64,000 nt of DNA, from positions 1-64,000 of the forward strand of contig JAUJNL010000007.1 in the NCBI GenBank assembly GCA_030448185.1, written 5' to 3'. Source of the stretch: Cytophagales bacterium. GTDB taxonomy: Bacteria; Bacteroidota; Bacteroidia; Cytophagales; 172606-1. This document shows positions 4,683-29,561 of the stretch, piece after piece. Both the position numbers and the translations under genes were made by a program. A model generated the notes under the pieces. The model saw nothing but the letters and a program-made list of their open reading frames with translations. It ran no database searches and was not told where the DNA came from. Within the stretch, counting starts at the first letter, position 1; each line of letters begins with the position of its first letter.

Positions 4683-6572
4683 TTAATACGCCCTAACGGA
4701 AACGCCAGACATAAAATTGACAAAGGCTTTGTTCACTACTTTATTCCCGCCGGGAGTAGGATAGTTACCAGTAAAGTACCAGTCGCCAGTGTGATTGGGA
4801 CAGGCCTGATGCAGGTTGTCAACCGTCTGGAAGATTACTTCTACCTGGGCGTTAATATCAGCGGGCCGGATAATTTCGGCTACTTTCCGGGAAACTTCCT
4901 CGTAAGTGAAAGAATCGTATACCGCTTTTACAAAATTTTGCTCGTGAGCCCGGTCATTCCAGATGCCACTCTTGCATTCTTCCAACACATTATACAGCAG
5001 ATCTGATTGTCCGTGTTCCTTTAGCAAGGCCAGTGCTGCCCGGAAAGTTACAAATTCCTTTACTTTAGACATATCAATGCCGTAGCAGTCAGGGTAACGG
5101 ATCTGTGGGGCAGAAGATACAAGTACTATTTTCTTAGGACCCAGGCGGTCCAGAATTCTAAGAATACTTTTCTCCAGCGTAGTTCCCCGGACAATCGAGT
5201 CATCTACCAGCACCAAGGTATCTATACCGGGGCGTACCACCCCGTAAGTAGTATCGTACCCTTGTGAGACGAGCACATCGCGGTGGTCGTCGTCGGTAAT
5301 AAAGGTGCGAATCTTGGCATCTTTGATCACCAGCTTTTCCACGCGAGGCCGCAGGGTAAGTAATTTTTTCAGGTCCTCCCCTCTTACGCCCAATTCAATA
5401 GCCTGCTGGCGCTGATCAGCTAGATACTCCTCTAAGCCTAGCAGCAAGCCCAGGAAAGAAGTTTCGGCCGTATTGGGTACGTAGGAGAATACTGCATTTT
5501 CCAGATCATTTCCGATGGACTTGAGTACTTGTGGTACCAGCAACCGACCCAATTCTTTCCGTTCATTATAGATAGCCGGGTCCGTGCCGCGGGAAAAGTA
5601 GATCCGCTCAAAAGAGCATGATTTTTTCTCAATAGGTGCAATGAACTGGTGCTCCGCAAAATCCCCATCTTTGTTGATTACCAGAGCATGGCCAGGCGTA
5701 ATTTCTTTAATATCGTCGTATTCAGGGCCAAACGCAGCTTTGATTGCCGGCCGTTCGGAGGCAACCACCACCACTTCATCATTGGCATAATAGTACGCTG
5801 GCCGGATACCAGCTGGATCACGGGCAACAAAAGCACCTCCGTGCCCAATAATCCCTGCCATAGTATAGCCCCCGTCAAAATCACGGCAGGAACGGCGCAG
5901 CATTCGGGGAATGTCCATGCGGCTTTCAATTACCTGAGACATTTCCGCATTGGTATACTGGTCTTTATACAAGTCAAACAACCGCTGGTTTTCTTCGTCG
6001 AGGAAGTGGCCGATTTTTTCCATTACGGTTACCGTGTCCACTTTTTCCTTAGGGTGCTGACCCAGGGAAAGGAGTTTATTAAACAGCTCATCTACATTGG
6101 TCATATTAAAGTTACCGGCTACAACTAGGTTGCGGCTGCGCCAGTTGTTTTGCCGGAGAAACGGATGACAATTTTCGATGCTGTTAAGGCCATGTGTACC
6201 ATAGCGCAGGTGACCAAGCAAAACTTCTCCCGTAAAAGCCACATTTTCTTTCTGCCAATCAGCATCCAGCAATTTATCCTTATGGCCTTTTACCGACTTC
6301 TTGTATTTTTTATGAATTTTCTGGAAGATCTTGGCAATCGGAGGAGCGTCAATGGAACGGTAGCGGCTAATATACCGGCTGCCGGGAGGAACATTCAATT
6401 TGATTACGGCCACACCTGCCCCATCCTGCCCGCGGTTACTCTGTTTCTCCATCATCATATACAGCTTATTTATGCCGTAGAGTGGAGTACCGTATTTATC
6501 AATGTAGTACTGGTAGGGCTTTCGCAGACGAATTAGTGCGATACCGCATTCGTGTTTGATCTGTTCGCTCAT
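4683..6572 (-). CDS. purF: amidophosphoribosyltransferase (PurF-like), extended Bacteroidota form
   Basis: PurF makes phosphoribosylamine from PRPP and glutamine, the first step of purine synthesis. The candidate Ntn nucleophile is C9 in HECGIALI, so an eight-residue propeptide would have to be removed. SNRGQDGAG near residue 46 is the next glutaminase signature, and the PRPP loop VLVDDSIVRGTT lies near residues 455-467. At 629 residues the protein is well over 100 longer than textbook PurF; the extra length is spread through the glutaminase half and the C-terminus. Bacteroidota carry such long homologues. Whether it is the main PurF or a divergent paralogue cannot be told from this window. 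Confidence 0.82.
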   Translation of the reverse strand: MSEQIKHECGIALIRLRKPYQYYIDKYGTPLYGINKLYMMMEKQSNRGQDGAGVAVIKLNVPPGSRYISRYRSIDAPPIAKIFQKIHKKYKKSVKGHKDKLLDADWQKENVAFTGEVLLGHLRYGTHGLNSIENCHPFLRQNNWRSRNLVVAGNFNMTNVDELFNKLLSLGQHPKEKVDTVTVMEKIGHFLDEENQRLFDLYKDQYTNAEMSQVIESRMDIPRMLRRSCRDFDGGYTMAGIIGHGGAFVARDPAGIRPAYYYANDEVVVVASERPAIKAAFGPEYDDIKEITPGHALVINKDGDFAEHQFIAPIEKKSCSFERIYFSRGTDPAIYNERKELGRLLVPQVLKSIGNDLENAVFSYVPNTAETSFLGLLLGLEEYLADQRQQAIELGVRGEDLKKLLTLRPRVEKLVIKDAKIRTFITDDDHRDVLVSQGYDTTYGVVRPGIDTLVLVDDSIVRGTTLEKSILRILDRLGPKKIVLVSSAPQIRYPDCYGIDMSKVKEFVTFRAALALLKEHGQSDLLYNVLEECKSGIWNDRAHEQNFVKAVYDSFTYEEVSRKVAEIIRPADINAQVEVIFQTVDNLHQACPNHTGDWYFTGNYPTPGGNKVVNKAFVNFMSGVSVRAY

Positions 6573-6704
6573 AAGGGCCGAGCTAAAAAGTAGGTTTGAT
6601 TGTAAAAGACTATTACCAGAATTTTAACCGAAAGTTAACCCTTTTTGGGTACTGTAAAAACAACCACTTGCAGAACGTACTATCCGAAGCAATTACTGCT
6701 GTTC

Positions 6705-8198
6705 TTAAATCAGAGTATACTGGATAAATTGTATAATCCAATCTGCCTTGAAAAAGAAAACAACCAGTAAAACAGTCATTAGTGCAATAAGGCTTCCCTC
6801 ATAGATACCTAAACGGATGGTATTAAGTTCATCTCCGGAGCGAAAAAAAAGCAGAAAAGGAATTTTTAAATAGTAAAACAGTGATACGGCTACATTGAGC
6901 AAACCGACTCCAAATACCACTAACAACCAGCTTTGGTGATTAGTCTGATACGTTTCCCAAAGCGCCGAAAAAACGAACAGCTTCGCCGTGAATCCAACAG
7001 TTGGTGGTAAACCTGCCAATGCAAGCATTACAACGGTAAAGGCCACCCCGAAGAGAGGCAAGCGTTGGCCTATACCCTGGTAATCAGATAGCATTTGTGA
7101 ATGAGTTTGGGTTTCGGCTACCCCTACCAGCAGGAAAGCCGCAAAGTTCATGAATACATATGCAGACACGTAAAACAGTAAGCTTTGCGTGCCTGTCAGA
7201 CTGGTAGCGGCTACACCAATCAGCAGAAAACCTGCGTGGGCAATGGACGAATAAGCCAGTAACCGCCTCACGTTGCGTTGCCACAAAGCCGAAAAATTAC
7301 CAATGGTCAGGGTGAGCAGGATGATCAGACAAAGTCCTTGCACAAAAAGAGCAACTATTTCGGGCTTTAGTGAGGTAACCGGAGATACCAACCTTAATAA
7401 TACGGCAAGTCCGGCGGCTTTGGGTGCCACCGAGAAAAAGGCAACGGCAGGCAGCGGGGCCGCTTCATAGGCATCGGGAGTCCAGACGTGAAAAGGCGCC
7501 GCTCCGATTTTAAATAGAAAACCGGCAACGGTTAAAAACAGGGTCAGCAGCAAGGGAAAAGCCGGAATCTGAGCTAAGGCCTGGTAAAAGTCCGGCTCCG
7601 TTATATTTAGGGACCCCGTGAACCCATAGAGCCACGACATACCATACAGCATCACGCCGGAGCTCATCGCCCCGAAAAGCAGATACTTCAACCCTCCCTC
7701 AGAGGCTTTACGATCCGTAAGTAGGGCGGTCAGAATGTAGGAAGAGATTGAAACCAGTTCAACCGCCAGGTAAATACTGAGCAGATTTACACTCATCGCC
7801 ATCAGATGCAGTCCCAGAATGGCCGCTACCAGCAAGGTAAAAAATTCTCCCGGCAACCGCTTTTCAATGAGCTTATTGCCCGTTTGGGAAATCAGAATGG
7901 TTAACAGGCCAGCCAGCAGAAAAATGTATTTGAAGCTAATGGCTATGCCATCCAGCCGGAGCAAGCCCAGAAAAAACGCAGTAGACGTAGTTGCTATAAG
8001 CCCTTGCCGCCCAAAAACCGTAGAAGCAACCACAATCAACCCAGCAAAACCGACCCAGGGAATTATTTTACCAGCCGTCCGTTTAAAAATCAAATCCAGC
8101 AGGACGAGCAGCACCAAAAGGCCCACTAGCAGGATTTCGGTCCAGAAAGCGGGAAAGCTTTGCAGTAAATCCGATAAAACTTGCCGGAGAGGATTCAA
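6705..8198 (-). CDS. nuoN: NADH-quinone oxidoreductase subunit N
   Basis: NuoN is an antiporter-like proton-pumping membrane subunit of respiratory complex I. The 497-residue protein is almost entirely hydrophobic helices and holds the conserved core lysine/glutamate segments, for example LLSIYLAVELVSISSYIL with the TM5-type glutamate and YSSIAHAGFLLIGVAA. The length matches the family. The gene follows nuoM on the same strand with a spacer of about 120 bp. Unlike nuoM it is uninterrupted. No other nuo genes precede nuoM in this window. Confidence 0.94.
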   Translation of the reverse strand: MNPLRQVLSDLLQSFPAFWTEILLVGLLVLLVLLDLIFKRTAGKIIPWVGFAGLIVVASTVFGRQGLIATTSTAFFLGLLRLDGIAISFKYIFLLAGLLTILISQTGNKLIEKRLPGEFFTLLVAAILGLHLMAMSVNLLSIYLAVELVSISSYILTALLTDRKASEGGLKYLLFGAMSSGVMLYGMSWLYGFTGSLNITEPDFYQALAQIPAFPLLLTLFLTVAGFLFKIGAAPFHVWTPDAYEAAPLPAVAFFSVAPKAAGLAVLLRLVSPVTSLKPEIVALFVQGLCLIILLTLTIGNFSALWQRNVRRLLAYSSIAHAGFLLIGVAATSLTGTQSLLFYVSAYVFMNFAAFLLVGVAETQTHSQMLSDYQGIGQRLPLFGVAFTVVMLALAGLPPTVGFTAKLFVFSALWETYQTNHQSWLLVVFGVGLLNVAVSLFYYLKIPFLLFFRSGDELNTIRLGIYEGSLIALMTVLLVVFFFKADWIIQFIQYTLI

Positions 8199-14338: not shown

Positions 14339-15991
14339 ATGAAGAATTTGCGCAGGCTGTTTTACGTGGCATTTTTGATTTTTTCGCTGGGTGGGTCAGT
14401 TATTGCCCAAAACAGTAAATACCTGATTGAGTTCACGGATAAGCACAACTCTCCCTTCTCGCTGGGCCGCCCCACGGAGTTTCTCTCCCAGCGGTCTATT
14501 GACCGGCGTATCCGGCAGAACATTCCGCTTACCAATCGTGATCTGCCCGTTAATGCAGCTTATGTGAAAGCGGTCAGGGAACTGGGCGCCCATGTATGGT
14601 ATACCTCCCGCTGGATGAACGCGGTGCTGGTAGAAACCGACGAACCTACCTTGGCTAAGATCAGCAAATTACCGTTCGTAAAGTCCCCCGCCGGACCAAG
14701 AGTCGCGGGAGCAAGATTCAAAAATACTGGTGGTACGGGTACTAATCAGGAATACAGTAATATCGATGACAAGCAATGGGGCATAACTCCCGCCGACTAC
14801 GGCAATGCCCTAACCCAGGTAGCCATGCTGGGAGCGGATAAAATGCACGAAGAAGGGTTCACGGGTAAGGGCTTGCAAATTGCGGTATTGGATGGCGGCT
14901 TTCGCAATGCGGACAAACTGCCTTTCTTCACGCATTTATTCACCGAAAAACGGATACTGGGCACCTATGATTTTGTGCAGAACGAACGGAGTGTGTATGA
15001 AGATGACTCCCACGGCATGCAAGCCCTCTCGGCCATTGCGGCTTATCAGCCGGGCGTGATGATTGGTACGGGTTACGATGCCAGCTTCTGGCTGCTCCGA
15101 ACAGAGGCAGGAGGTTCTGAAAGCCGCGTGGAAGAAGTAAACTGGCTCATTGGAGCCGAATTTGCCGACAGTGTAGGCGCTGATATACTCCATTCTTCCC
15201 TGGGCTACAATACATTTGATGACCCAACCACAAATTACCGGCAATCGGATATGGACGGCAATACGGCTATCTCTACCAAAGCGGCGGATTTTGCAGCCTC
15301 AGTGGGCATATTAGTAGTAGTGAGTGCCGGAAATGAAGCCAATGATGCCTGGAAGAAGATTACGGCACCGGCCGATGCGGATTCTGCATTGGCCGTGGGA
15401 GCCGTAGACCGGAACGGGCAATGGGCCAGATTCAGTTCATTAGGACCTTCGGCTGACCAGCGCGTAAAGCCGGATGTAGCCGCTCAGGGACAAGGGACCA
15501 CGCTGGGAAGAACCGATGGCTCGGTAGGCACTTCTAATGGCACCTCTTTTTCCGCACCGCTGTTATCCGGGCTAGCTGCCGGGTTCTGGCAGGCCTTCCC
15601 GCAACTGACCAATATGGAGGTAATTTCCTATTTGCAGCGGTCAGCGTCGCAAGCGTCTAAGCCAGACTCATTACTCGGATACGGTATCCCTGACTTTAGC
15701 CGGGCTTTTGCCTTGGCTCAGGAGGAAAACAATACGAAAATAGGCTATCTGTCGCCTAATCCGGTTTTGGATGGTTCCATTACCATTCAAGTCAATAATC
15801 GCTTTTTAACTAAGCCTCTGGAAGTGGAAGTGTTCGATCTAAAGGGCAGGAGTTTGGCTAAGTACTCAGTGAAGCAGACGTTACGGGAAAATCACTTTCC
15901 ATTACTGGCACCCAGACTGCGGTCTGGTTTATATTTACTTCGCTTAACCTCGGAAGGCCAACAGCAGACGCTACGGCTGGTAAAAGAATAA
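14339..15991 (+). CDS. subtilisin-like serine protease with type IX secretion sorting domain
   Basis: The 550-residue protein has an N-terminal signal peptide (LFYVAFLIFSLGGSVIAQ), a propeptide-like region, and a peptidase S8 domain. The catalytic triad is D185 in AVLDGGF, H225 in DDSHGMQA and S403 in NGTSFSAPLLSG. The last 75-80 residues, starting near GYLSPNP and ending TLRLVKE, form a type A C-terminal sorting domain used by the type IX secretion system. The protease should therefore be exported through the outer membrane and released or attached at the surface. It is probably cotranscribed with the lipoprotein before it. Confidence 0.93.
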   Translation: MKNLRRLFYVAFLIFSLGGSVIAQNSKYLIEFTDKHNSPFSLGRPTEFLSQRSIDRRIRQNIPLTNRDLPVNAAYVKAVRELGAHVWYTSRWMNAVLVETDEPTLAKISKLPFVKSPAGPRVAGARFKNTGGTGTNQEYSNIDDKQWGITPADYGNALTQVAMLGADKMHEEGFTGKGLQIAVLDGGFRNADKLPFFTHLFTEKRILGTYDFVQNERSVYEDDSHGMQALSAIAAYQPGVMIGTGYDASFWLLRTEAGGSESRVEEVNWLIGAEFADSVGADILHSSLGYNTFDDPTTNYRQSDMDGNTAISTKAADFAASVGILVVVSAGNEANDAWKKITAPADADSALAVGAVDRNGQWARFSSLGPSADQRVKPDVAAQGQGTTLGRTDGSVGTSNGTSFSAPLLSGLAAGFWQAFPQLTNMEVISYLQRSASQASKPDSLLGYGIPDFSRAFALAQEENNTKIGYLSPNPVLDGSITIQVNNRFLTKPLEVEVFDLKGRSLAKYSVKQTLRENHFPLLAPRLRSGLYLLRLTSEGQQQTLRLVKE

Positions 15992-16623: not shown

Positions 16624-17355
16624 TCAGTCTACCCGGGTTACTTTACCACTGCCGGAAATGTTTACACTGACTGATGGATTGCCCCGGTACCGTACATTGC
16701 CGGAGCCGCTTACTTTGGCAACTAAGTTATCAGTCACCGTCACTTCGCAATTACCAGATCCACTAATGCGGGTATCCGTAGATTTAGCAGTCAGGTCAAA
16801 AGCCCGGATATTGCCCGAACCGGAGATTTCAATATCGTGAGAGAAGCAATCTCCGCCTAGCCTCATACTGCCTGAGCCGGAGATACGGCTATTCAAACCC
16901 GTTGCTTCTGCTACATTGAGGTTCATATTACCGGAGCCGGATATTCTTAATTCCAGGTTTTTTACCTTCCAGTCGGTACGCCCCTCAGCCCGGCCGGAAC
17001 CGGATACTTGCAGGGAGGTCAGCACGGGATTGGTTATGTATACCCTTACCGGTTCGTGCCGGCCTACGTTAACAAAGTTTTTAAATTTAATCTCCAGTTC
17101 ACGGTTTTCAACTTTGGTCTGCAATACGTCCAGCACATTTCCCTGGCCTTCCACCCGGATGTCTTCCGCCGGGCCCTGCGTCAAGTACACCTCAATATCA
17201 TCGTGTACTTCTACCGCATCAAAAGTACTAACGGCACGGGTTTCGGAGAGGACATCACCCCGGCCCCGGATAAAATTGTCTTCGCAGGAAGAAAGGGCAA
17301 TCATCAAACTGGTTCCAAGCGCCAATAAATAGAAGGATGTTTTTACAGTGTTCAT
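16624..17355 (-). CDS. head GIN domain (DUF2807) lipoprotein
   Basis: The 243-residue protein starts with a lipoprotein signal whose lipobox cysteine is C24 (ALSSC). The mature part is a DUF2807 'head GIN' right-handed beta fold, opening with RAVSTFDAVEVHDDIEVYLT and followed by many ISGSGN-like turns spaced about 20 residues apart. These proteins are predicted to be surface or periplasmic adhesin-like solenoids; no activity is established. It lies 71 bp downstream of the TonB receptor on the same strand and is probably the last gene of the sigma/FecR/STN/TonB series. Confidence 0.9.
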   Translation of the reverse strand: MNTVKTSFYLLALGTSLMIALSSCEDNFIRGRGDVLSETRAVSTFDAVEVHDDIEVYLTQGPAEDIRVEGQGNVLDVLQTKVENRELEIKFKNFVNVGRHEPVRVYITNPVLTSLQVSGSGRAEGRTDWKVKNLELRISGSGNMNLNVAEATGLNSRISGSGSMRLGGDCFSHDIEISGSGNIRAFDLTAKSTDTRISGSGNCEVTVTDNLVAKVSGSGNVRYRGNPSVSVNISGSGKVTRVD

Positions 17356-17426: not shown

Positions 17427-19811
17427 TCAGAACTCGATCCGGTAATTGAGTACGGGTATCAGTCCTACCTGATAGGCCGTAGCCAGATCACCCTTATCCT
17501 GGTCGTAGTATTGGCTGTATACATTAAGCCGGTTGGTCACGTTTTGAATATCCAGTGACAGGATGTACGAAGCTTTTGGCCGGTTCTTGCGGTAGCTCAC
17601 CCGTACATCCGTGCGGAAATAATTCGGGGCCTGCAACTCAAAGCGGCGGTTATCCAGGTAAAAAGCTTTGCCCTGTTCGCGGGACTTTTCCAAGTCAATC
17701 GGGGTATACCGCCGGCCACCGGCCCAAAGCAAACGCACATTTATCCCAATCAGGTTATTCCGTCCTTTCCCTACCTTGAATTCCTTACCCGCCGTAGCGC
17801 TGTTAATGAATTTTCCATTAAAGCGCGTATTGCGTTCCTTGCCATCGGTGGCGGTATACAGGGAGTTATACAGGGAAGTATTGAGCAAGAAATAATAATT
17901 CTTGGTGAAGAATTTTTCCAGGGTTAGTTCCAGCCCGTAGTTCTGTCCTTTGCCGGTATTAACCAGACTGTCCGTAGTGAAGCCGCCTTCGAAATTAATA
18001 GTTGAATAAGAACTACTTAGGGATGGATTTACGGGCACATTATACAGCCGCTGGTAATACACTTCGCCTTTAAAGCGCAAGTCGTCGAACAACTGGTTTT
18101 CGTAGGATACTATATAATGCTGGGCTTTCGAAAAACCAAGTTTCCGGTTAGGCTGCACGTAAGAACCGTCTGGTTGCCTCTGCTCGGCAAAATAGGCCGA
18201 CATGGCTTCAATACGACTGTGCACACCAAATCCGGCGCCAACCGCCTGACGGGGAGCAAACTGCCACTTTATACCCGCCCTGGGCTCCAGGGAGGTCTGA
18301 CCATTTAACCCAAAGTACAGGCTATGCAAGCCCGTATTAAGGGTTAGCTTCTCCGAAATCCGGTATTTCCACTGGGCATAGGCTTGCATAAAGTACGTAT
18401 TGCCATTATTCTCCACATAGCGCACGAGTTGGTTGTTAAAATCCTCGTCGCGTCCCTCCGAAAACAGATCAAAGTGCAGATTACTATAGATAAACCCGGT
18501 ACGGACCGTATGATGGGCGTTGAACTTATGGTTTAACTGAACGGACAGCCGGCCCGCCTGGTTAGTATACTGTTCCCGGTAATGGGTATCGGGCGTATAG
18601 TCACTGGTCAGTGAGTCATAGCGGAACTGGCTGCCATTGAGACTATAGGTTAATACCGATTCCAGATACGTTTTCTGGCCAAGCGGCATAAAATGAGAGA
18701 TACCGTGCGCCATCATCCGTGAGGAGAAGCTTTCCTGGAAACGGTCGGCATTTTCACTCCATTTCAGCGAGTCTTTTTCGGCTTTCTGTATCTGACGGCT
18801 TAGTCCGCCGATGCCCCACACCGAGAACACGCCGGCTTTGGCCGTGGGTACGTGAACTTTATAGGCAAAATCCTGAAAATTAGGTACGGCGTCGCCGCCT
18901 ATTTTTACCCCGATCATATCGAGAATGCCTAGGGTAGAATAACGGTAGTTGGCCAGGTAAGATGCCTTAGATTTCCGGCTGAAGGGCCCTTCAGCGGCAA
19001 AGTCCAGGCCCAGCAAACCTGCCTGCGCGGCGTATTCCCGTTTTTCGTTATTGCCTTTGCGTAGCTTTATATCAAATACCCCAGACAAGGCATTGCCATA
19101 TTCCGCCGGAAAGGCCCCCGTAAAAAAGTCAGAGTTGTCCAGCATATTTACACTTAAAATGCTTATGCCTCCTCCGGATGCGCCTTCATCGCCAAAATGG
19201 TTCGGATTAGGTACTTCTACACCTTCCAGCCGCCATAGCAGACCCCGCGGCGAATTACCACGGATGACTATATTATTACTCCCATCATCGGTGGAAGACA
19301 CACCGGCGTAAGATAAGGCTGCCCGGGCCGGGTCATTTACACTAGCCGCATATCGCTTGGTTTCGTCCACGGAAACGGACCGGGCACTGAGCAAGGCCAT
19401 TTCATTGATCGGCTGTCCTTTATCCTGTTCACTGGCTGAGATGACCACTTCTTGCATCTGCACCAATGACTCACTGAGGCCCACTGTCAGAATTACTTCT
19501 TTGCCGGTGCCTACCAGCATTTCGGAGATCACGTGGTCTTCGTAGCCGATGAATGATATTTTAATCGTATGCCGCCCCACGGGCACGCCCTCAATCCGGA
19601 AATTGCCCTGGCTGTCGGTAGTAGTGCCCTGCAGGGGATTGGTTGTGACAACGGCTACTGTAACGCCGGGCAATGGCGTCTGAGAGGCATTGTCTTTTAC
19701 GACTCCCCGGATGGTCTGGACCAGGACCGGTTTGCCTTGGGCGTACAGAAAGTTTTTGGGAATTAGGCAAAGCGATGCCAGAATAAGGATATATAGCGTC
19801 CTCATATGCAA
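17427..19811 (-). CDS. TonB-dependent receptor with carboxypeptidase-like regulatory domain
   Basis: The 794-residue outer-membrane protein has a signal peptide, a CarboxypepD_reg-like domain at about residues 30-115 (VRGVVKDNASQTPLPGVTV-type), a plug domain to about residue 240, and a 22-strand-type barrel ending in VLNYRIEF, with the terminal phenylalanine typical of such barrels. It lacks its own N-terminal STN signalling domain; the neighbouring gene at 19986 has one instead. The ligand is unknown. The broken gene at 24340-26724 is a paralogue of equal length, so this locus originally held two related receptors. Confidence 0.92.
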   Translation of the reverse strand: MHMRTLYILILASLCLIPKNFLYAQGKPVLVQTIRGVVKDNASQTPLPGVTVAVVTTNPLQGTTTDSQGNFRIEGVPVGRHTIKISFIGYEDHVISEMLVGTGKEVILTVGLSESLVQMQEVVISASEQDKGQPINEMALLSARSVSVDETKRYAASVNDPARAALSYAGVSSTDDGSNNIVIRGNSPRGLLWRLEGVEVPNPNHFGDEGASGGGISILSVNMLDNSDFFTGAFPAEYGNALSGVFDIKLRKGNNEKREYAAQAGLLGLDFAAEGPFSRKSKASYLANYRYSTLGILDMIGVKIGGDAVPNFQDFAYKVHVPTAKAGVFSVWGIGGLSRQIQKAEKDSLKWSENADRFQESFSSRMMAHGISHFMPLGQKTYLESVLTYSLNGSQFRYDSLTSDYTPDTHYREQYTNQAGRLSVQLNHKFNAHHTVRTGFIYSNLHFDLFSEGRDEDFNNQLVRYVENNGNTYFMQAYAQWKYRISEKLTLNTGLHSLYFGLNGQTSLEPRAGIKWQFAPRQAVGAGFGVHSRIEAMSAYFAEQRQPDGSYVQPNRKLGFSKAQHYIVSYENQLFDDLRFKGEVYYQRLYNVPVNPSLSSSYSTINFEGGFTTDSLVNTGKGQNYGLELTLEKFFTKNYYFLLNTSLYNSLYTATDGKERNTRFNGKFINSATAGKEFKVGKGRNNLIGINVRLLWAGGRRYTPIDLEKSREQGKAFYLDNRRFELQAPNYFRTDVRVSYRKNRPKASYILSLDIQNVTNRLNVYSQYYDQDKGDLATAYQVGLIPVLNYRIEF

Positions 19812-19860: not shown

Positions 19861-19983
19861 ACCTCACCCTAAATCCTTCCCAGAGGCTGGCCCGAAAACT
19901 CCCGTTTTCGTCCCCTGCCCAGAGGGGAGCAAGACTTTGGTGATCTTAAAGTCTCTCTGGAGGAGAGGGCTTTAGGGTGAGGT
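19861..19983. repeat. 123-bp element with 13-bp perfect terminal inverted repeats
   Basis: ACCTCACCCTAAA at 19861-19873 is matched by TTTAGGGTGAGGT at 19971-19983. The interior is GC-richer (CCTGCCCAGAGGGGAGC) and also self-complementary in part. A half-copy of the right end (GAGAGGGATTTA...TTAGGGTGAGGGT) occurs at about 23500-23543. The element abuts the stop codon of the STN gene at 19986. It may be a dispersed repeat or a terminator derived from one. Confidence 0.65.
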
Positions 19984-19985
19984 TT

Positions 19986-21812
19986 TTAAAATCTTATACC
20001 GGCGTTGATTCCGGGCCACATCGTTACGCGGGTACGTCCCGATTGGCGGTCATAGGTATTCCAGGGAGCTATCTCAAGACCGTACTGCCGGCGTTCCGAA
20101 TCATACAGGTTAGACACGTATACATTAAAGGTAGGTCCGGCAAAGAGAGCAAAGCGTTTACCGAGTTGCACGCCAAGGTTGGCCCGAAGCTGGTTCAATA
20201 AGTTCAATTCGTCCGTCCATACTTGGTTTTCATTGATGTGCCAGGCGATGGCATCAATATTTAGTACAAAACTTCGGGAAAGCCCCACTTCGCTGCCGAA
20301 GCCATAGCCAAATGCCCAGCGGTAATTTTCACCATTCAGGGTTTTGCCACTAAGGGCAAAAATGTTATGAAATTGTCGGGTTCCCATTTTATACGCGGCA
20401 TTTACGTAAAATGACTCGCTGCCCCACACTTCAAATCGCCGGTAGCCGTGCCGGGCAAAATTGAGCAGGCCGATCTGTACGCCCTTTACACTATCGGCCA
20501 CATTTATCACCCCGATCTGCACGCCATCAACATTTTTAGCCACATTAATGAAACCCGCTACCTGAACCCCGTCCACAGTTCCTTTAGCAATATTGGTAAA
20601 GCCGGCTGCCTGCGGTCCTTTAAGATCGCCTTTCGCCAGGTTAAGAAAGCCGGCAAACTGGCCGCCTTTGACACTACCATTGGTGATGTTTGCGAATCCG
20701 GCAAATTGCCCGGCAGCCGCGTTGTCTCCCACTACGTTAATAAACCCAGCAAACTGAGCGCCTTTGGTGGCGCCCCCATTGATATTGGCAAAACCAGCAA
20801 ACTGCCCGGCCGATACCTCTTTGCCGACAATGTTAGCAAAGCCGGCAAACTGTACCCCTTTTACGTAGTCTTTTTCAATATTAACCAGACTGCCAAACTC
20901 TACTCCGTCCAATCCGGCAGCATAACCCGCTAGTATGTTAAAAGAAACATGGTTAACAATCTGTCCGGCTTGCGTACCATTGGTACTCAGGGGAGGAACA
21001 AAGCCAATTTGAAAAGGCCTCTTCTTATAGTCTGTATCGGTAGTATCAATGGTGCTTATACCCATTTCCGTAGAACGGATTTGGGAAGAATCAGCTTTTT
21101 CCTCAGCTGCCTTTGCCTTTTTGCTATCCTTATTTTTGGAGCTGTCGGCAGGTTCACTACGTATACTATCAACTTCCGCTGCTGTTTCTGCACTGCGGAG
21201 CCGGGAGAGCAGCTTCCGATTGGATGCCTTTACGTCTTCCAGCGTGACATTCTGGTCTATTTCCTCAGCTGTACTTTCAACTTTCCTGGATACTTTCCGC
21301 ACCGCCTCTTCCAGTTCCAGGGCATACGCTTCGTACCGTTTTGGCTTCGTTACATTTACCGGCACGGAGTCCATCTGAATGTGTCTCGCTGCAATCTTCC
21401 CCGTTGAGGCGGTAGGTTCCAGATCAGGTCTGATAATAGGCGCTACCTGGTAAACCGGTTTTGTCAGGGTGCTTTCCTTCAGGCGCACTTCTGCTTTTGG
21501 CTTGATTTGACTGATCAGTACGATCTGATCACCTACAATTTGATAACTTACTGAGGCATTACTCAATAAGGCATCAAGTACGGTTCTCAATGGTTGATTT
21601 TTAGCAGCATACGTGATTTTCTGATTAAGTGGAATCAGGTTGTTGGCATAGGAAAAATTCAGGCGGTACTTCTTCTGCAAATCACTGATTATCTGATTAA
21701 GGGACATTTCAGCATATTGTACGGTTACGTTTTGCTGCAAGTCGGGCCGTTGTGCCAGTAAGGACATAGCAAAGCCTGGCATGGTCAGCCATAATAAGAA
21801 TACACGTTTCAT
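19986..21812 (-). CDS. STN-domain protein with QFAGF-type surface repeats
   Basis: After a signal peptide, residues 25-110 form an STN domain (YAEMSLNQIISDLQKKYRLN, then LRTVLDALLSN), the module that in FecA-type receptors touches FecR. A charged linker with many serines, lysines and acids follows (about residues 190-260). Then about ten tandem repeats of 15-17 residues read QFAGFANI/QVAGFINV, which I recognise as the LA_2272-type surface repeat. The last 150 residues look like outer-membrane strands (WGSESFYVNAAY; GYGFGSEVGLSRSFVL; NAGIRF at the end). The gene lies 24 bp downstream of FecR and upstream of the TonB receptor, exactly where a separate signal-transfer subunit would sit. The architecture is unusual; a signalling role is inference. 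Confidence 0.82.
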   Translation of the reverse strand: MKRVFLLWLTMPGFAMSLLAQRPDLQQNVTVQYAEMSLNQIISDLQKKYRLNFSYANNLIPLNQKITYAAKNQPLRTVLDALLSNASVSYQIVGDQIVLISQIKPKAEVRLKESTLTKPVYQVAPIIRPDLEPTASTGKIAARHIQMDSVPVNVTKPKRYEAYALELEEAVRKVSRKVESTAEEIDQNVTLEDVKASNRKLLSRLRSAETAAEVDSIRSEPADSSKNKDSKKAKAAEEKADSSQIRSTEMGISTIDTTDTDYKKRPFQIGFVPPLSTNGTQAGQIVNHVSFNILAGYAAGLDGVEFGSLVNIEKDYVKGVQFAGFANIVGKEVSAGQFAGFANINGGATKGAQFAGFINVVGDNAAAGQFAGFANITNGSVKGGQFAGFLNLAKGDLKGPQAAGFTNIAKGTVDGVQVAGFINVAKNVDGVQIGVINVADSVKGVQIGLLNFARHGYRRFEVWGSESFYVNAAYKMGTRQFHNIFALSGKTLNGENYRWAFGYGFGSEVGLSRSFVLNIDAIAWHINENQVWTDELNLLNQLRANLGVQLGKRFALFAGPTFNVYVSNLYDSERRQYGLEIAPWNTYDRQSGRTRVTMWPGINAGIRF

Positions 21813-21836
21813 TTGATTAGCTTGTTAAATTGTCTG

Positions 21837-22880
21837 TCATTGACAGCCAGAGCCAGATAGTAAGTAATGGCCGTTCCGGTATTCGTACCGGAGATTCATG
21901 GAAACAGAAAGTACTTCAACTACATTGTTAAGGGCAGGCTGGTCAAATGCCCCGGTGAAACGACAATCCAGGATGGCTTCATTCTGCACGTTGATCGGGG
22001 TACCGAAATAATGTTCCAGAGAAGCGATTACCTGCTCCAGGCGCATATCATTAAACTCCAACCGGCCGGTTTGCCACGACCGGAAGTTTGGGTCGCTGAT
22101 TACCGATTTGGTAACCCGCTTTTGTTGCGCCAGCAATCCCTTGAAACCGGGAGTCAGAATAATACGGGTCGTATCGCCGGGCTTGGATACTTTTTTCCGC
22201 GGTGATAAAGCGACCTTTCCGGTCACCACCTGAACTTCCGTGGTTCCGGCCTTTTCATCAGACTTTACCGTAAAGGAAGTACCCAAAACTTCAGTTTGCG
22301 CATTTCCGGTCAGGACCACAAATGGTTTCTGCGCATTGCGCCTGACTTGGAAAAAGGCTTCCCCTTTTAAGTTTACTACCCGCCTGGAACCTTCCAAATT
22401 GTCTTCGTAAGTTACGCTGCTGTTCCGGTTCAGATACACGCGGCTGCTGTCGGGCAAGTAGAATACCTGTTTGGTTGCTTGTGCACGTAATACAACCGTC
22501 GAAGTATCTTTACTCACATACAGCGTCGCGATCCAGGCTACGCCCAGCATGATCAGTACGGCAGCAGCTACCCGCCATACGTACATCGGGATTACCCGCC
22601 CTTCGGATGGAGCTGCCGGCTTAGCTACCGTCTCGGGTTGCGGAGCAGAAACTTCCATCTGGGCCCGGAACCGTTGCCACGCCTGCGTTACATCAGGTTC
22701 GAATTCCTGCTTTACCGTACCGGTTACGTGCCATAGGTGCGTAGTCCGGTGGAAAGTCTCCCGGTTGGCAGGGCTTTCGTTGACCCAGCGGAACAACTCC
22801 GCTGTTTCTTTCTCCGTGATTTCATGATTGAGGTATTTACCAAGTAACTCCCAGTAGTACCCATTATCCGGCTCGTACAT
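21837..22880 (-). CDS. FecR family anti-sigma factor
   Basis: The 347-residue protein has an N-terminal cytoplasmic helical segment (YYWELLGKYLNHEITEKE..), a single membrane helix near residues 98-120 (VAAAVLIMLGVAWIATLYV), a FecR domain, and a C-terminal DUF4974 region (LEFNDMRLEQVIASLEHYFG). In Bacteroidota such proteins hold an ECF sigma factor inactive until the STN domain of a partner signals. It lies 24 bp ahead of the STN gene and is probably cotranscribed with it, whereas its sigma gene is 666 bp upstream with a repeat element between. Confidence 0.95.
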   Translation of the reverse strand: MYEPDNGYYWELLGKYLNHEITEKETAELFRWVNESPANRETFHRTTHLWHVTGTVKQEFEPDVTQAWQRFRAQMEVSAPQPETVAKPAAPSEGRVIPMYVWRVAAAVLIMLGVAWIATLYVSKDTSTVVLRAQATKQVFYLPDSSRVYLNRNSSVTYEDNLEGSRRVVNLKGEAFFQVRRNAQKPFVVLTGNAQTEVLGTSFTVKSDEKAGTTEVQVVTGKVALSPRKKVSKPGDTTRIILTPGFKGLLAQQKRVTKSVISDPNFRSWQTGRLEFNDMRLEQVIASLEHYFGTPINVQNEAILDCRFTGAFDQPALNNVVEVLSVSMNLRYEYRNGHYLLSGSGCQ

Positions 22881-23483: not shown

Positions 23484-23546
23484 ATTACTACTTGAAAGGA
23501 GAGGGATTTACCCAAAAAGGCGAACTTTGTTTAGGGTGAGGGTCTG

Positions 23547-24122
23547 CTACAACAGCAACGAGAACAAATGCTTTACGTAGGTACTCAGGTACAATTTCAT
23601 TTGCTTCAGTGCCTTTCCCATTTGATTCTCTACCGTCTTAACGGAAATCTGCATGGAGTCGGCAATTTCCTTATAACTCATTTCTTCGTACCGGCTCAAC
23701 ACAAAAACAGTTTTACAGGCGGGAGGCAATGTTTCAATGGCTTCCTTCACCCGGCTTTCCAGTTCGCTGGCATGGATCTGCTCCTCCACGTGATACGTTG
23801 CTTGTTCAGGCAGTGAGTCTACCTCGATACTTACGTTACGCTTGTTTTTTTCCAGGTAATTGAGTGCAGCATTAATAGCGGCCCGGTATAAGTAGGACTT
23901 AATGGAATAATTAAATTCCATTTCCTTACGGTTATTCCAGATTTTCAAAAATACGTCCTGCAGAATATCCTCCGTGGCTTGCGAATCATTAACCATGCGG
24001 TTGACGGTACGCCCTAAGGGAGCATAGTATTTTTTAAACAAAGCCTCCATAAAAGCAGCTTCATTCTGCTTTTGCAGGGCAAGCAGTCCGGCTTCGTCTT
24101 CTGAATTTTGTGGTTGGGCCAT
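23547..24122 (-). CDS. RNA polymerase ECF-type sigma-70 factor
   Basis: The 191-residue protein has sigma region 2 (QATEDILQDVFLKIW) and region 4 (LPPACKTVFVLSRYEEMSYK with the helix-turn-helix IADSMQISVKTVENQ), typical of Bacteroidota sigma-70 factors paired with FecR proteins. It should direct RNA polymerase to promoters of the downstream FecR/STN/TonB genes and perhaps its own. All those genes are on the same strand downstream, though 666 bp of spacer with a repeat element intervenes, so its target promoter may lie within that spacer. Confidence 0.95.
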   Translation of the reverse strand: MAQPQNSEDEAGLLALQKQNEAAFMEALFKKYYAPLGRTVNRMVNDSQATEDILQDVFLKIWNNRKEMEFNYSIKSYLYRAAINAALNYLEKNKRNVSIEVDSLPEQATYHVEEQIHASELESRVKEAIETLPPACKTVFVLSRYEEMSYKEIADSMQISVKTVENQMGKALKQMKLYLSTYVKHLFSLLL

Positions 24123-24339: not shown

Positions 24340-26724
24340 TTAGAAATCTACTCTATAGTAAAATAGAGGCAGAAAGCCCAACTGGTATTCTTCCCGCAGC
24401 GGGTTTTCTTCAGGCTTCCGGGGATTAGGCGCATAGGTAATGGAAAGCACGTTCTTAATGCCCAGAATATTCACTAAATCAACGGCTACTTCGTGCGTGA
24501 GCTTACGGGAATTGCGCCGAAAACCCAATCGTAAGTCGGCCCGCAGGTAATTGGCGAACTGAAGCTCATTACGCACGGAATCGATGGGAACTACTTCTTT
24601 CTTTTCCAGAGAGGCAGCTACATCCGGTAAAGAGTAACGGCGACCCCCGGCCCAGGTAAGCTTACCGCCAATAATCAACGTAGTCTGCTTTTTCTTCCCG
24701 ACTGTGTACTCGGCACCACTCAGCAAGTTGGTAGCAAAGTGTCCATTGTAATCCGTATTGCGGAGCACCCCGTTACTACCCCGGTATTTGGAGTCGAACA
24801 GGGAACCCGTCAACAGCAGGAAGTAGTTGCGGCTGAAGAATTTCTCCAGCGTAAACTCCACGCCGTAGTTGTAGCCGGTTCCCTGATTGACCAGTACACT
24901 ATCCGGAAACAACCGGGTAAACCCGGAGCCCTGGTTGAGCAGCGATACCGAAGAAGGATAGCGGGTAATGGGGATTCGGTCCAGGTACTGGTAATACGTC
25001 TCAGCCTTGATACGAACCGTCGGAGAAATGGCGTAATCATAGCCCAGCACTAAATGCTGGCTGCGGGTAAAGCCCATATCCCGGTTATGCGGTTGCCGGG
25101 TACCCGGCAGGTGGTAAAAATACAGATAGGTAGACTGCATCTGGTGGTGCAGACCGTAACCGAAACTGACGGATTGCCCGGGACGTACCTGCCAGCTGAC
25201 CCCCAAGCGGGGTTCAATAGCCCTACTGTTATTATTTAAGGTAAAAATTAACCCGTTTAGCCCGGCGGTAAAGGTAAGCTGGTCGGTAGGCTTGTATTTC
25301 CACTGCAGGTAGGGCTGGAGCAAATAAGCGTTGCCTTGATAATCCCAGCGGTTATCGAAGCGGTTCGTTTTATCGTTCCGGATGCTGTCTACAAAGTTAA
25401 AGCCGTACCGGTCCAGGAAAAAGCCCGTTTTCAGGGTATGCTTCAGCCCGATTTTTTCGTCAGCGATGAGGTCAGCGACAGCTTTCCTTCACCGAAGTCA
25501 TAACCCAACAATTGGCGCAGCGAGTCTACCTCAAATTGTTGATTGAAGAAAATGGAGTTGTGCCAGACGTGGCTACGGGCATAAGAGGCGGCCAGCGTAG
25601 AACGGATAAACGTAGTACTGTTGATCGGAAACAGATGACTTACCCCGGTTACTCCCATTTGGGAACGGGAAATACTGGTCACGGTCCTTTCTCCATAAAT
25701 ATTGTCCAGCAACTCCTTATCCTTGCTTACTACAATGTCAATCTTGCTGGCCCCACCAATACCAAATACGGAGAAGGTTCCTGCCTTCTTAGTTGGAAAA
25801 TTTAATTTAAAGGATAAATCCTGGTAAGTGGGTACGGCCGAAGTGCCAATGTTCAGATTCAATGCCTGGAAAAGCTTTAGGGTTGAATACCGGTACGAAA
25901 AAAGATAAGAAGAATGGTTCTTGCGGCTTATGGGCCCTCAGCCGAAAATTCAGTACCTAATACGCCTAACTGGGCGGTAAACTCGTGCTTTTCATTATTG
26001 CCGCTCCGAAAATTGAGGTCGAAAATACCGGCCAGCGCATTGCCGTATTCGGCGGGGAACGCCCCGGTGAAGAAGTCGAAGTAGCTAAAGTTTTATTATT
26101 AATGATTGACACCGCCTCCGGTACCGGCAATGGCAAAGTGATTGGGATTGGGGATGGAGATACCTTCAGGAGGCGGTAAAGCAAGCCAGCCGGGGAGTTG
26201 CCCCGGATTATAATATCGTTGCGGCATCATTGAGCCTTGCACCCCCGCAAAATTAGAAGCCATCGGGCCGGATCGTCGCGGCTACCGGTGTATCGTTTGG
26301 TTTCATCCACGGAAAAGGTGCGGCACTGACGGTAGCCATCTCATTAGTAACCTCGCCTCTTCTGTTCCCTTCAATCACTACTTCGTTCATCATCGTGGCC
26401 GAGGCTTCCAGCTGTATATTCAGAATAACCTCTTTCCCGGATGTTACCACCACATTGGGAATAGTGGCAGGCTGATAACCGACGAAACTACATTGCAAGG
26501 TGTGCCGGCCTACTTTAACTTTCTCCAGCCGGAAATAGCCTTCGGCATCGGCCAAGCGCCAGTTGTTCCTGTGGAGTCAGTCTGTAACTGTATCGTAGCA
26601 CCGGGCAAGGGGTTTGCGTTTCCTTGTCGGTAATACGGCCCCGGATCGTTTGGGTAAGCGTTTGGGCTGGCAGCAGATACGGAAGCAGAAGAATGATAAC
26701 AGTCAAACGGTAAAAGTGATTCAT
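24340..26724 (-). pseudogene. second TonB-dependent receptor, broken by several indels
   Basis: Pieces in different frames assemble in order into a paralogue of the receptor at 17427. They run from an N-terminal signal and regulatory domain (TQTIRGRITDKETQTPCPV; LEKVKVGRHTLQCSFVGYQP), through the plug region and barrel segments, to the C-terminal FLPLFYYRVDF. The overall span of 2385 bp equals the intact paralogue. I traced two breaks. One missing A in the AAAAAA run near 25455 restores SSLTKKIGLKHTLKTGF, and one missing C in GGGCCC near 25933 restores GPISRKNHSSYLFSYRYSTL. Others lie between 25960 and 26600. Homopolymer losses suggest sequence error, but true decay is not excluded. Confidence 0.85.
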
Positions 26725-26858
26725 ACGAGGGAAGTGGTGCCGGAATGGTGAATAAAAATAAGGGTTTCAGCCGGATTGGGAAAATTTGGTTTTGGGTACT
26801 GGGTATTAGTAAAAGGTCATCCAGAGTAAAGTCCAATGTCTAATTGAATTGACAAAAG

Positions 26859-27040: not shown

Positions 27041-27586
27041 TTGGAAACACAGCTGTACTACGACATCCATCAGCCCGTTGTGGAAAGATGCCGTCTGGGG
27101 GACCGCAAGGCCCAGTACGAGTTGTATCGTCTTTATTCGAAGGCGATGCTCAACGTTGCTTACCGTATTACCAATAACCAGGCAGAAGCGGAAGATGTGT
27201 TACAGGAGGCCTTTTTGAGTGCGTTCCGGAATATTGCGGCGTTTCAGGGAAATGCTACTTTCGGCAGCTGGCTGAAAAAGATAGTAGTTCACCGGGCACT
27301 GGCCGTAGTACGTAAACGTAAGCTTCCTTTGATTCAGTGGAAGAACATGATTTTGCGGATTCAACGGATGACATGGACGCGGAATCGCTGGAGTGGGAAG
27401 TCAGTAAAATCCGGAACGCCATTCAACAATTACCGGATGGGTACCGCGTGGTGCTTTCCTTGTATTTGCTCGAAGGGTACGACCATCAGAGATTGGCGAA
27501 ATCTGGGAATTACCGAATCGACCTCGAAATCGCAGTACAGCCGGGCCCGGCAGAAGTTATTGCAGATCGTTCAAAGAGGAGCGTAG
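27041..27586 (+). pseudogene. second ECF sigma factor, broken by two frameshifts
   Basis: The first frame gives sigma region 2 (NNQAEAEDVLQEAFLSAFRN, FGSWLKKIVVHRALAVVRKR). A second frame from about 27340 gives the linker and region 4 start (WEVSKIRNAIQQLPDGYRVV LSLYLLEGYDHQ). A third returns to the first frame for the end, LGITESTSKSQYSRARQKLL. Two single-base indels, near 27335 and near 27490, would restore one protein of about 180 residues. The start codon is TTG at 27041 if the sequence is right here. It is divergent from the broken TonB receptor, and an anti-sigma-like gene follows. Confidence 0.85.
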
Positions 27587-27691
27587 GCGAGGTAAAAGTA
27601 ACAGTGGCCTTTAGTTAATTCTAAAGGATGAAGATTAAAGATTAAATACTAAATTAAAATAAGAATATAATAAGAGCAGTAATAAGCAGCA

Positions 27692-28273
27692 ATGAAAGAC
27701 CAATTTGAAAAATTTGTAGAGAGAGAACCGGACCGAATTTGATGCCCTGGAGCCGCGGGCTGACCTGTGCTCGACCTCAGCCTTCGGTTGCTGGAAAAGG
27801 AGGAGATTTCTAAACCTATCTGGTTTCGGCAAACCTTCTGGCGGTATGCCGCCGCCGTAATTATCCTACTTAGCGGCCTGAGGGTATATCAACAGGCGCG
27901 CTATACCCAGCGCATAGACACCAGTTATTCCGTAGCACAGGCCCCCTTACAACAAGTAGCCCCCGAACTGGCACCCGTAGAGGCCTACTATACTTCACTG
28001 ATCAGCCAGCAGCGACAACTGTTGAACGATGAGGAGCTGAAAAACCTGGGCTTGGGTAAAGACTTCGAACGGGACCTGGCGACGCTGGATTCGGCCTATG
28101 CCAAACTGAAAAAGGACTTGTACAAGGATGTGAATAAAGAACAGATTACCAATGCCATGATCCAGAATCTGCAAATGCGGGCCGATATTATCGGGAAGCA
28201 GATACAGACGCTGAATCAGATTAAAAAATATCAGGAGAAAAAACATTATGAAAAGACAAGTACTTCAATCTAA
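27692..28273 (+). pseudogene. membrane anti-sigma-like protein, frameshifted near its N-terminus
   Basis: The N-terminus reads MKDQFEKFVEREP from the ATG at 27692, the typical opening of small Bacteroidota proteins that follow ECF sigma genes. It then loses frame near 27730-27770. The rest continues as LLEKEEISKPIWFRQTFWRY, one membrane helix (AAAVIILLSGLRVYQQ), and a helical periplasmic-side region rich in K, D and Q. I infer an anti-sigma-factor role from position and layout; there is no FecR or zinc-anti-sigma motif. It overlaps the following DUF4097 gene by 26 bp, so translation is probably coupled. Confidence 0.7.
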
Positions 28274-29561
28274 ATGGATTGCCTTGATACTGCTGTTTTG
28301 CCTTTCTGCTAACAGCCTGCAGGCCCAGGACCGGCCCAAGGAAAAACATAAGGAGAAAGACGAGAAATGGGAGGAAATAGGCAAAAAAGTGGGAGAGGCG
28401 TGCGAAGACCTGAGCAAAAATCTGGAGAAAACCATTCGGGAGACTTTTGACGACGACTTCAAGAACGAAATGAGCCATCTGAGTCGTGACCTGGGCTACG
28501 CCATGCGTGAGCTTTCTGAGGAGATTGCGGACAATCAATCGCGGGGAGATGCCCACAGCGGGAACCTGGATGAGGAGCGGCGTAAAAAGATGTCTCGGTC
28601 ATTCAAGGTAAATGGGTCTGATGTACTTTCTATTACCAACCAGTTTGGCAAAGTGCACATTAATACCTGGGATAAGGGCGAAATCAACGTGGAAGTAACC
28701 ATGATTGGCCGGGCCAATACCTCTGAAAGAGCCCAGGAAATACTGGACCTGATCAACGTGCTGATTTCTGAAGAAAACAATTTGATTGCCTTTAAAACCG
28801 AAATCGGCAAGACGCATAGCAATAACCACAACGGAAAAAAGGGCTTTGAAATCAACTACACGGTGACTATGCCCAAAAATAATCCCTTGCGCCTGAAGAA
28901 CTCCTTTGGTGATGTATACATTGCCAATTTAAATGGCAGACCTGAATTGAATGTGTCCTATGGCAGCCTGAAAGCTGAGCATCTTACGCATTCGGAAAGC
29001 TTCGTCAAAGTGTCTTTTGGCTCGGGCAACATTGAATCCATGAAAGGGGGAACCCTGGATGTCAACTATTCCACGGTCAATGTCGAAAACATGGGTAACC
29101 TGACGGTGAGCAGCGACTTCTCAAAACTTGAAATAGAGAAAGCGGGTAATCTCGATCTGAAAGCCCGTTATGGCAGCGTGAAGCTGGGTAGCGCCACTAG
29201 TATTGTTGGCTCAGCGGGTTTCTCGGAGTTTGAAGTGGATAGGGTGAGCGAAAAGATAGACATGCGGGTACAGTACTGCAATGACTTCGAAATTCAAAAT
29301 ATGACTAAAGGATTTAAGCAGGTAAACCTGGATGCTGGATATAGTAAGATCAGACTAAACTTCGACCCAGGCACCAGTTTTAACTTCGATGTAAGTCTGC
29401 AATACGCCGACCTCGATGCAGGAGAAAATCTCAATAACTTCTCTTTTGTAGAGAAAAAGAGTAATTCCAAGATTTATAAAGGTACCTTCGGCAAAGGCTC
29501 CGGGGGCTGGGTAAAGATTGCCTCCCGTTACGGCAACGTAGATTTTAATCTCAATGACTAA
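28248..29561 (+). CDS. DUF4097-type beta-solenoid protein, exported
   Basis: The 437-residue protein has a signal peptide (WIALILLFCLSANSLQAQ), a charged helical stretch at residues 25-110, and a long beta-repeat region of the DUF4097 putative adhesin type (SYGSLKAEHL, GSGNIESMKGGTLDVNYSTV, RYGSVKLGSATS). Such proteins may bind surfaces or sense envelope state; activity is unestablished. It overlaps the anti-sigma-like gene, so the three genes sigma, anti-sigma-like and DUF4097 form one unit and this may be its effector or signal component. A GC-rich terminator follows. Confidence 0.87.
   Translation: MKRQVLQSKWIALILLFCLSANSLQAQDRPKEKHKEKDEKWEEIGKKVGEACEDLSKNLEKTIRETFDDDFKNEMSHLSRDLGYAMRELSEEIADNQSRGDAHSGNLDEERRKKMSRSFKVNGSDVLSITNQFGKVHINTWDKGEINVEVTMIGRANTSERAQEILDLINVLISEENNLIAFKTEIGKTHSNNHNGKKGFEINYTVTMPKNNPLRLKNSFGDVYIANLNGRPELNVSYGSLKAEHLTHSESFVKVSFGSGNIESMKGGTLDVNYSTVNVENMGNLTVSSDFSKLEIEKAGNLDLKARYGSVKLGSATSIVGSAGFSEFEVDRVSEKIDMRVQYCNDFEIQNMTKGFKQVNLDAGYSKIRLNFDPGTSFNFDVSLQYADLDAGENLNNFSFVEKKSNSKIYKGTFGKGSGGWVKIASRYGNVDFNLND

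Follow-up and report, generated by a model that had tools for sequence, protein, structure and literature searches.

Genes at the locus

The window, a 64,000-nucleotide stretch of a Cytophagales genome, contains an ECF sigma factor gene followed on the same (minus) strand by genes for a FecR anti-sigma factor, a protein that joins an STN domain to surface repeats (the STN-repeat protein), a TonB-dependent receptor and a GIN-domain lipoprotein (Table 1). This is the order given in a preliminary description of the locus, and the Pfam and family-model matches agree with the domain content that it had assigned to the operon. The interval it had allotted to the STN-repeat gene requires division: positions 19986-21812 are indeed that gene's open reading frame, while the rest, up to 22880, holds fecR. 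The two genes are separated by about 25 bases, and the gap between the sigma gene and fecR is 667 bases. Promoter and terminator scans returned matches at chance level only.

Table 1. Coordinates of the genes at the locus and of the segments of the STN-repeat protein.
Feature	Positions	Strand	Evidence
ECF sigma factor, FecI-like	23547..24122	-	TIGR02985, 159.8 bits (cut-off 126.4); Sigma70_r2 and r4_2
FecR anti-sigma factor	21837..22880	-	PF04773, 63.1 bits; PF16344, 49 bits
STN-repeat barrel protein, 608 aa, proposed outer-membrane transducer	19986..21812	-	Domain matches, model, conservation behind fecR
Probable signal peptide, residues 1-20 (..SLLA/Q)	21753..21812	-	Read from sequence; helix 2-18 in model
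STN domain, residues 23-101	21510..21746	-	PF07660; model pLDDT about 90; Foldseek to 2a02
Periplasmic linker, residues 105-260	21033..21500	-	pLDDT mostly 30-55; poorly conserved; partly helical
Repeat and predicted outer-membrane barrel region, residues 263-608, C-terminal Phe	19989..21026	-	pLDDT mostly >80; Foldseek
Eight regular 16-residue GxQFAGFxN repeats, residues 303-430	20523..20906	-	NF047436 above cut-off
Two degenerate repeat copies after the regular eight	down to about 20460	-	
TonB-dependent receptor without STN	17427..19811	-	PF13715, PF07715, no PF07660; ATG start probably 19805
GIN-domain (DUF2807) lipoprotein	16624..17355	-	PF10988, 168 bits; lipobox LSSC read from sequence

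FecR comprises a cytoplasmic part, one transmembrane segment (read from sequence), a periplasmic FecR domain and an STN-like FecR_C domain, and its residues 137-338 match the solved putative anti-sigma factor 4m0h/4m0n (E 1e-19). The TonB-dependent receptor contains CarbopepD_reg and Plug, with PF07660 absent, as had been claimed.

A dispersed intergenic repeat with ends cctcaccctaaa/tttagggtgagg and 34 other matches in the genome occupies positions 19866-19983, between the STN-repeat gene and the receptor gene, and similar sequence is found in the sigma-fecR gap near 23500-23550.

Domains and predicted fold of the STN-repeat protein

The STN domain scores 31.9 bits against PF07660 (cut-off 28.4; residues 51-101), and the model of FecR_C (PF16344), itself an STN-like domain, matches at the same place. 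We modelled the protein with AlphaFold2 from a 24-row alignment. The STN domain and the region of repeats and barrel both reached a pLDDT of about 90, and the intervening linker, mostly below 50 (30-55), is disordered or helical. Foldseek placed the STN domain with the PupA signalling domain 2a02 (TM 0.69 by target, E 0.1), and also with the PupB signalling domain and the N0 domains of secretins; a search of solved structures with the single STN-repeat sequence gave no match, the STN relatives being found by profile only. We rejected an artefactual STN assignment, given the PF07660 score above cut-off and the confident model. The domain is real, both by Pfam and by a model that resembles the PupA signalling domain.

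The LA_2272 repeat model NF047436 matches at 28.7 bits (cut-off 25), and the eight regular and two degenerate copies make the original estimate of about ten repeats a fair one. The VC2662 family model NF047437 reaches 39.7 bits, far under its cut-off of 140, and Pfam gave no match to a Plug domain or a TonB-receptor barrel. Foldseek matches to the barrel were mostly outer-membrane barrels (NspA, OprF-N, OmpX, Opa and OpcA), with weak E values of 0.009-0.2. The repeat and C-terminal region is therefore predicted to belong to the outer-membrane barrel class of fold, with no close solved relative (best E 0.009), and the short modelled strands at a 16-residue period suggest that the repeats may not be ordinary barrel strands.

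Among homologues the barrel is conserved and the linker poorly so. Several members of the class have the order STN-CarbopepD_reg-barrel, in which the first two domains stand as they do at the N-terminus of signalling TonB receptors. At three loci (L112, positions 6159-7963; L170; L193), the STN-repeat gene apparently consists of two pieces, one with STN and one with the barrel, maybe because of sequencing errors or decay.

STN-repeat genes are linked to fecR across Bacteroidia

A homologue was found in 169 of the 390 genomes of the order Cytophagales. We examined 172 neighbourhoods, comprising 94 from Cytophagales (of which one near-duplicate is excluded from the counts) and 78 from the rest of Bacteroidia, the latter sample being drawn with the barrel alone as query and hence blind to STN. 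Of 134 STN-repeat genes, 130 have fecR immediately upstream on the same strand: 73 of 77 in Cytophagales, with a median gap of 25 bases, and 57 of 57 outside it. At these loci a sigma gene usually precedes fecR. By comparison, fecR is directly upstream of none of the 81 STN-less homologues and of only 1 of the 1355 other genes in these regions.

These counts support the proposal that the STN-repeat protein belongs with FecR. Far from being common without such a neighbour, it lacks an adjacent fecR in only 4 of 134 cases, namely the second gene of a tandem pair (L040) and three orphans without fecR directly upstream (L084, L093 and L101). Chance adjacency of the two genes was rejected, as the arrangement is conserved over two genome samples. 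STN-repeat barrels behind fecR are a widespread class in Bacteroidia, not a curiosity.

Because related genomes share gene order by descent, the linkage was also examined on phylogenies inferred from the C-terminal barrel. On these, barrels with and without STN are interspersed, and well-supported branches require at least nine changes between the two states; fecR adjacency switches together with STN in nine of nine independent pairs (sign test, median P = 0.004). The same result was obtained on two trees, one from FastTree and one from IQ-TREE without long branches. A mirror-tree analysis of 60 operons, comparing STN with the FecR C-terminus, the barrel and the sigma factor, showed that all parts co-vary; across these operons, the partial correlation between STN and FecR_C was only 0.09, and 30 of 500 permutations were as high.

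The barrel occupies the slot of a signalling receptor

The window's genome is 75% complete and contains 20 FecR matches. Each of these 20 FecR genes is followed by an STN-bearing gene, as detected with our own STN profile. At the other 19 loci the STN gene carries CarbopepD_reg, and Plug was detected in 16 of the 19, a count limited to roughly 270-390 residues of each protein. Our home-made TonB-receptor profile also matches STN-repeat proteins, and receptor identity in this genome was therefore checked by Pfam. Only at the window's locus does a repeat barrel stand behind FecR. Because the other 19 loci have a receptor-type STN gene, the barrel here occupies the slot of the signalling receptor.

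TonB receptors are optional companions

The preliminary description had proposed a split signalling receptor, with the TonB receptor as the other half of the STN-repeat protein, and had suggested scoring how often the latter lies between fecR and such a receptor. Of 125 STN-repeat genes with enough downstream sequence, just 29 are followed immediately by a TonB receptor gene. Even with a size-based upper bound that counts any possible receptor, at most 51 of 125 have one within the next three same-strand genes, leaving 74 without. In 39 of the 125 the next gene is on the opposite strand, so that the STN-repeat gene is the last of its run. GIN genes occur in 25 of the downstream runs and STN-less repeat barrels in 26.

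With a receptor next in only 29 loci and the strand ending in 39, the TonB receptor is an optional companion. The common unit is sigma-fecR-STN-repeat alone, and a general rule of split receptors does not hold. It is more likely that the TonB receptor, the GIN lipoprotein and the STN-less repeat barrels are optional co-regulated products than that they are parts of the sensor, and they are likely targets of the sigma factor.

A rival explanation would have the STN-repeat barrel and an adjacent TonB receptor form one complex, in which the receptor binds the ligand and the barrel protein signals to FecR. The adjacency in the window and in the 29 loci would fit such a complex, as would the lack of STN in all 89 receptors found in the neighbourhoods and the recurrence of STN-less barrels beside a receptor of about 785 aa (L145, L151, L153, L160, L174 and L209). 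We consider it unlikely, given the 74 loci without a possible receptor in the next three same-strand genes, the 39 with an opposite-strand neighbour and, in the window, the dispersed repeat that stands between the two genes. As an obligatory partner, the TonB receptor was rejected.

Pairs of an STN-less repeat barrel and a TonB receptor, mostly of about 780-800 aa, recur at L145, L151, L153, L160, L174, L195 and L209. They lie mostly away from fecR and are possibly a separate module or a regulon target.

The same barrel occurs in Dma-type fusions

At four loci (L073, L078, L083 and L094), the sigma gene overlaps directly into the repeat-barrel gene, with no fecR between them. The encoded proteins begin with a short segment that lacks a signal peptide (DxxFRE...HEE...DW), followed by a hydrophobic segment and a long linker, and the sigma factors of loci of this type score below the FecI-type cut-off. 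A profile of this N-terminus (A6) matched in 36 of 148 genomes of the order. The best 20 loci of the profile all lie directly behind a sigma gene; among them, several end in OMP_b-brl_2 barrels and two (L260 and L261) in the repeat barrel. The repeat barrel thus joins this N-terminus beside a sigma gene at six loci.

This arrangement is the one reported for Dma factors, which consist of an anti-sigma domain, a transmembrane helix, a disordered tether and a barrel (PMC13088901). The window protein does not have this architecture: its N-terminus is a probable signal peptide followed by STN, and its anti-sigma factor, FecR, is the product of another gene. It shares with Dma factors an outer-membrane barrel (here predicted) and a long disordered tether to sigma control, and the same repeat barrel is used in the Dma-type fusions; unlike in Dma factors, its contact with the anti-sigma factor would be made via STN and would not be covalent. 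Seen both with STN and FecR and with a Dma-type N-terminus, the repeat barrel thus has two modes of coupling to sigma control. The six fusions provide independent support for its use in sigma signalling.

A predicted transducer without a plug

Among known systems, the locus is closest to the FecI-FecR-FecA, PupI-PupR-PupB and FoxI-FoxR-FoxA systems of cell-surface signalling. It has a FecI-like sigma factor, a FecR with an STN-like C-terminus and, beside fecR, a gene for a secreted product that starts with STN and whose outer-membrane location is predicted. It differs in that Pfam detects neither the Plug nor the TonB-receptor barrel of a TonB-dependent receptor in the transducer, whose barrel is repeat-built. 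The STN-CarbopepD_reg-Plug (SusC/FecA-like) receptors of Bacteroidota occupy the same slot behind fecR, and some STN-repeat proteins likewise carry CarbopepD_reg, but the Plug and TonB-receptor barrel are replaced by the repeat barrel. To the LA_2272 surface-repeat and VC2662 families, the likeness extends to the repeat motif; the VC2662 model stays far below cut-off and neither family model includes STN. From its domain matches, the STN-repeat protein is predicted to work like a cell-surface signalling transducer but not to be a TonB-dependent one.

Our main reading, to which we assign a probability of about 0.8, is that the STN-repeat protein serves a FecI-FecR system of cell-surface signalling as its outer-membrane transducer, with a plug-less repeat barrel in place of the TonB-dependent receptor. 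The domain content, the operon slot, the strict linkage of STN to fecR and the barrel-like fold prediction are the observations behind it. The barrel probably acts as a sensor at the cell surface without help from a TonB receptor, and the absent plug domain suggests that it may have no need for TonB.

In PupB-PupR and FoxA-FoxR, the STN domain binds FecR at its STN-like C-terminus and protects FecR at rest; a signal then leads to FecR processing and release of the sigma factor (PMC7186176, PMC11637429). By analogy, the periplasmic STN domain, on a flexible tether of roughly 155 residues, would dock onto the STN-like C-terminus of FecR and keep it in a protected state. A change at the barrel, caused by a ligand or by a change in the outer membrane, would alter the STN-FecR contact, upon which FecR would be processed and the FecI-like sigma factor released. 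Candidate signals are an outer-membrane change, binding of a surface glycan or some other ligand. An FSY stretch, at residues 53-55 in the window protein, is conserved in the STN domain of this family, and the order of secondary structure suggests that this strand may be the counterpart of the contact strand in PupB-PupR and FoxA-FoxR.

It may instead be that STN is a constitutive inhibitor or protector of FecR, that the barrel merely anchors it in the outer membrane and that the true signal reaches FecR from elsewhere. Overproduced signalling domains do inhibit signalling in Pseudomonas, where the domain protects the resting anti-sigma factor (PMC11637429), but the barrel is conserved and re-used in Dma-type fusions, beyond the needs of a mere anchor, which makes this account quite improbable. 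A structural or adhesive surface protein, in which STN is a leftover or a secretin-like oligomerisation module with no role in signalling, could draw on the STN domains of secretins (PilQ matches) and on the annotation of LA_2272 repeats only as surface repeat, but it is very improbable because a neutral or secretin-like role would not predict STN gain and loss to track fecR in all nine independent pairs.

Implications of a possible TonB-independent sensor

Existing descriptions assign cell-surface signalling to TonB-dependent transducers. A literature search of titles and abstracts, with subscription papers mostly beyond reach, found no description of the present system. If the class of plug-less transducers holds up, FecR-type signalling would be separable from TonB transport, and sigma-FecR pairs of Bacteroidia that lack an explanation may in some cases report something other than nutrient uptake. 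The odds seem to us even for a broader proposal: that, across Bacteroidia, FecI-FecR systems of one large class use a TonB-independent repeat barrel to sense the surface or outer membrane, and that this barrel, swapped between STN-type (FecR-coupled) and Dma-type (fused) control, is a portable sensor cassette for sigma factors. The shared barrel provides a link to Dma factors; as these govern the release of vesicles in Bacteroides, the state of the outer membrane is a signal that can be tested.

Sequence flanking the operon

Just upstream of the sigma gene, on the minus strand at 24340-26836, lies a second TonB receptor gene that is broken by several stop codons and shares 39% identity with the receptor at 17427-19811. 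Beyond it, at 27041-29561 on the plus strand, is another ECF sigma gene with a clear region 2 and a weak region 4; two open reading frames (168 and 437 aa; no Pfam match) follow it, possibly as part of another sigma/anti-sigma pair. On the other side of the operon, positions 14339-15991 encode a subtilase with a Por secretion tail, a cargo of type IX secretion.
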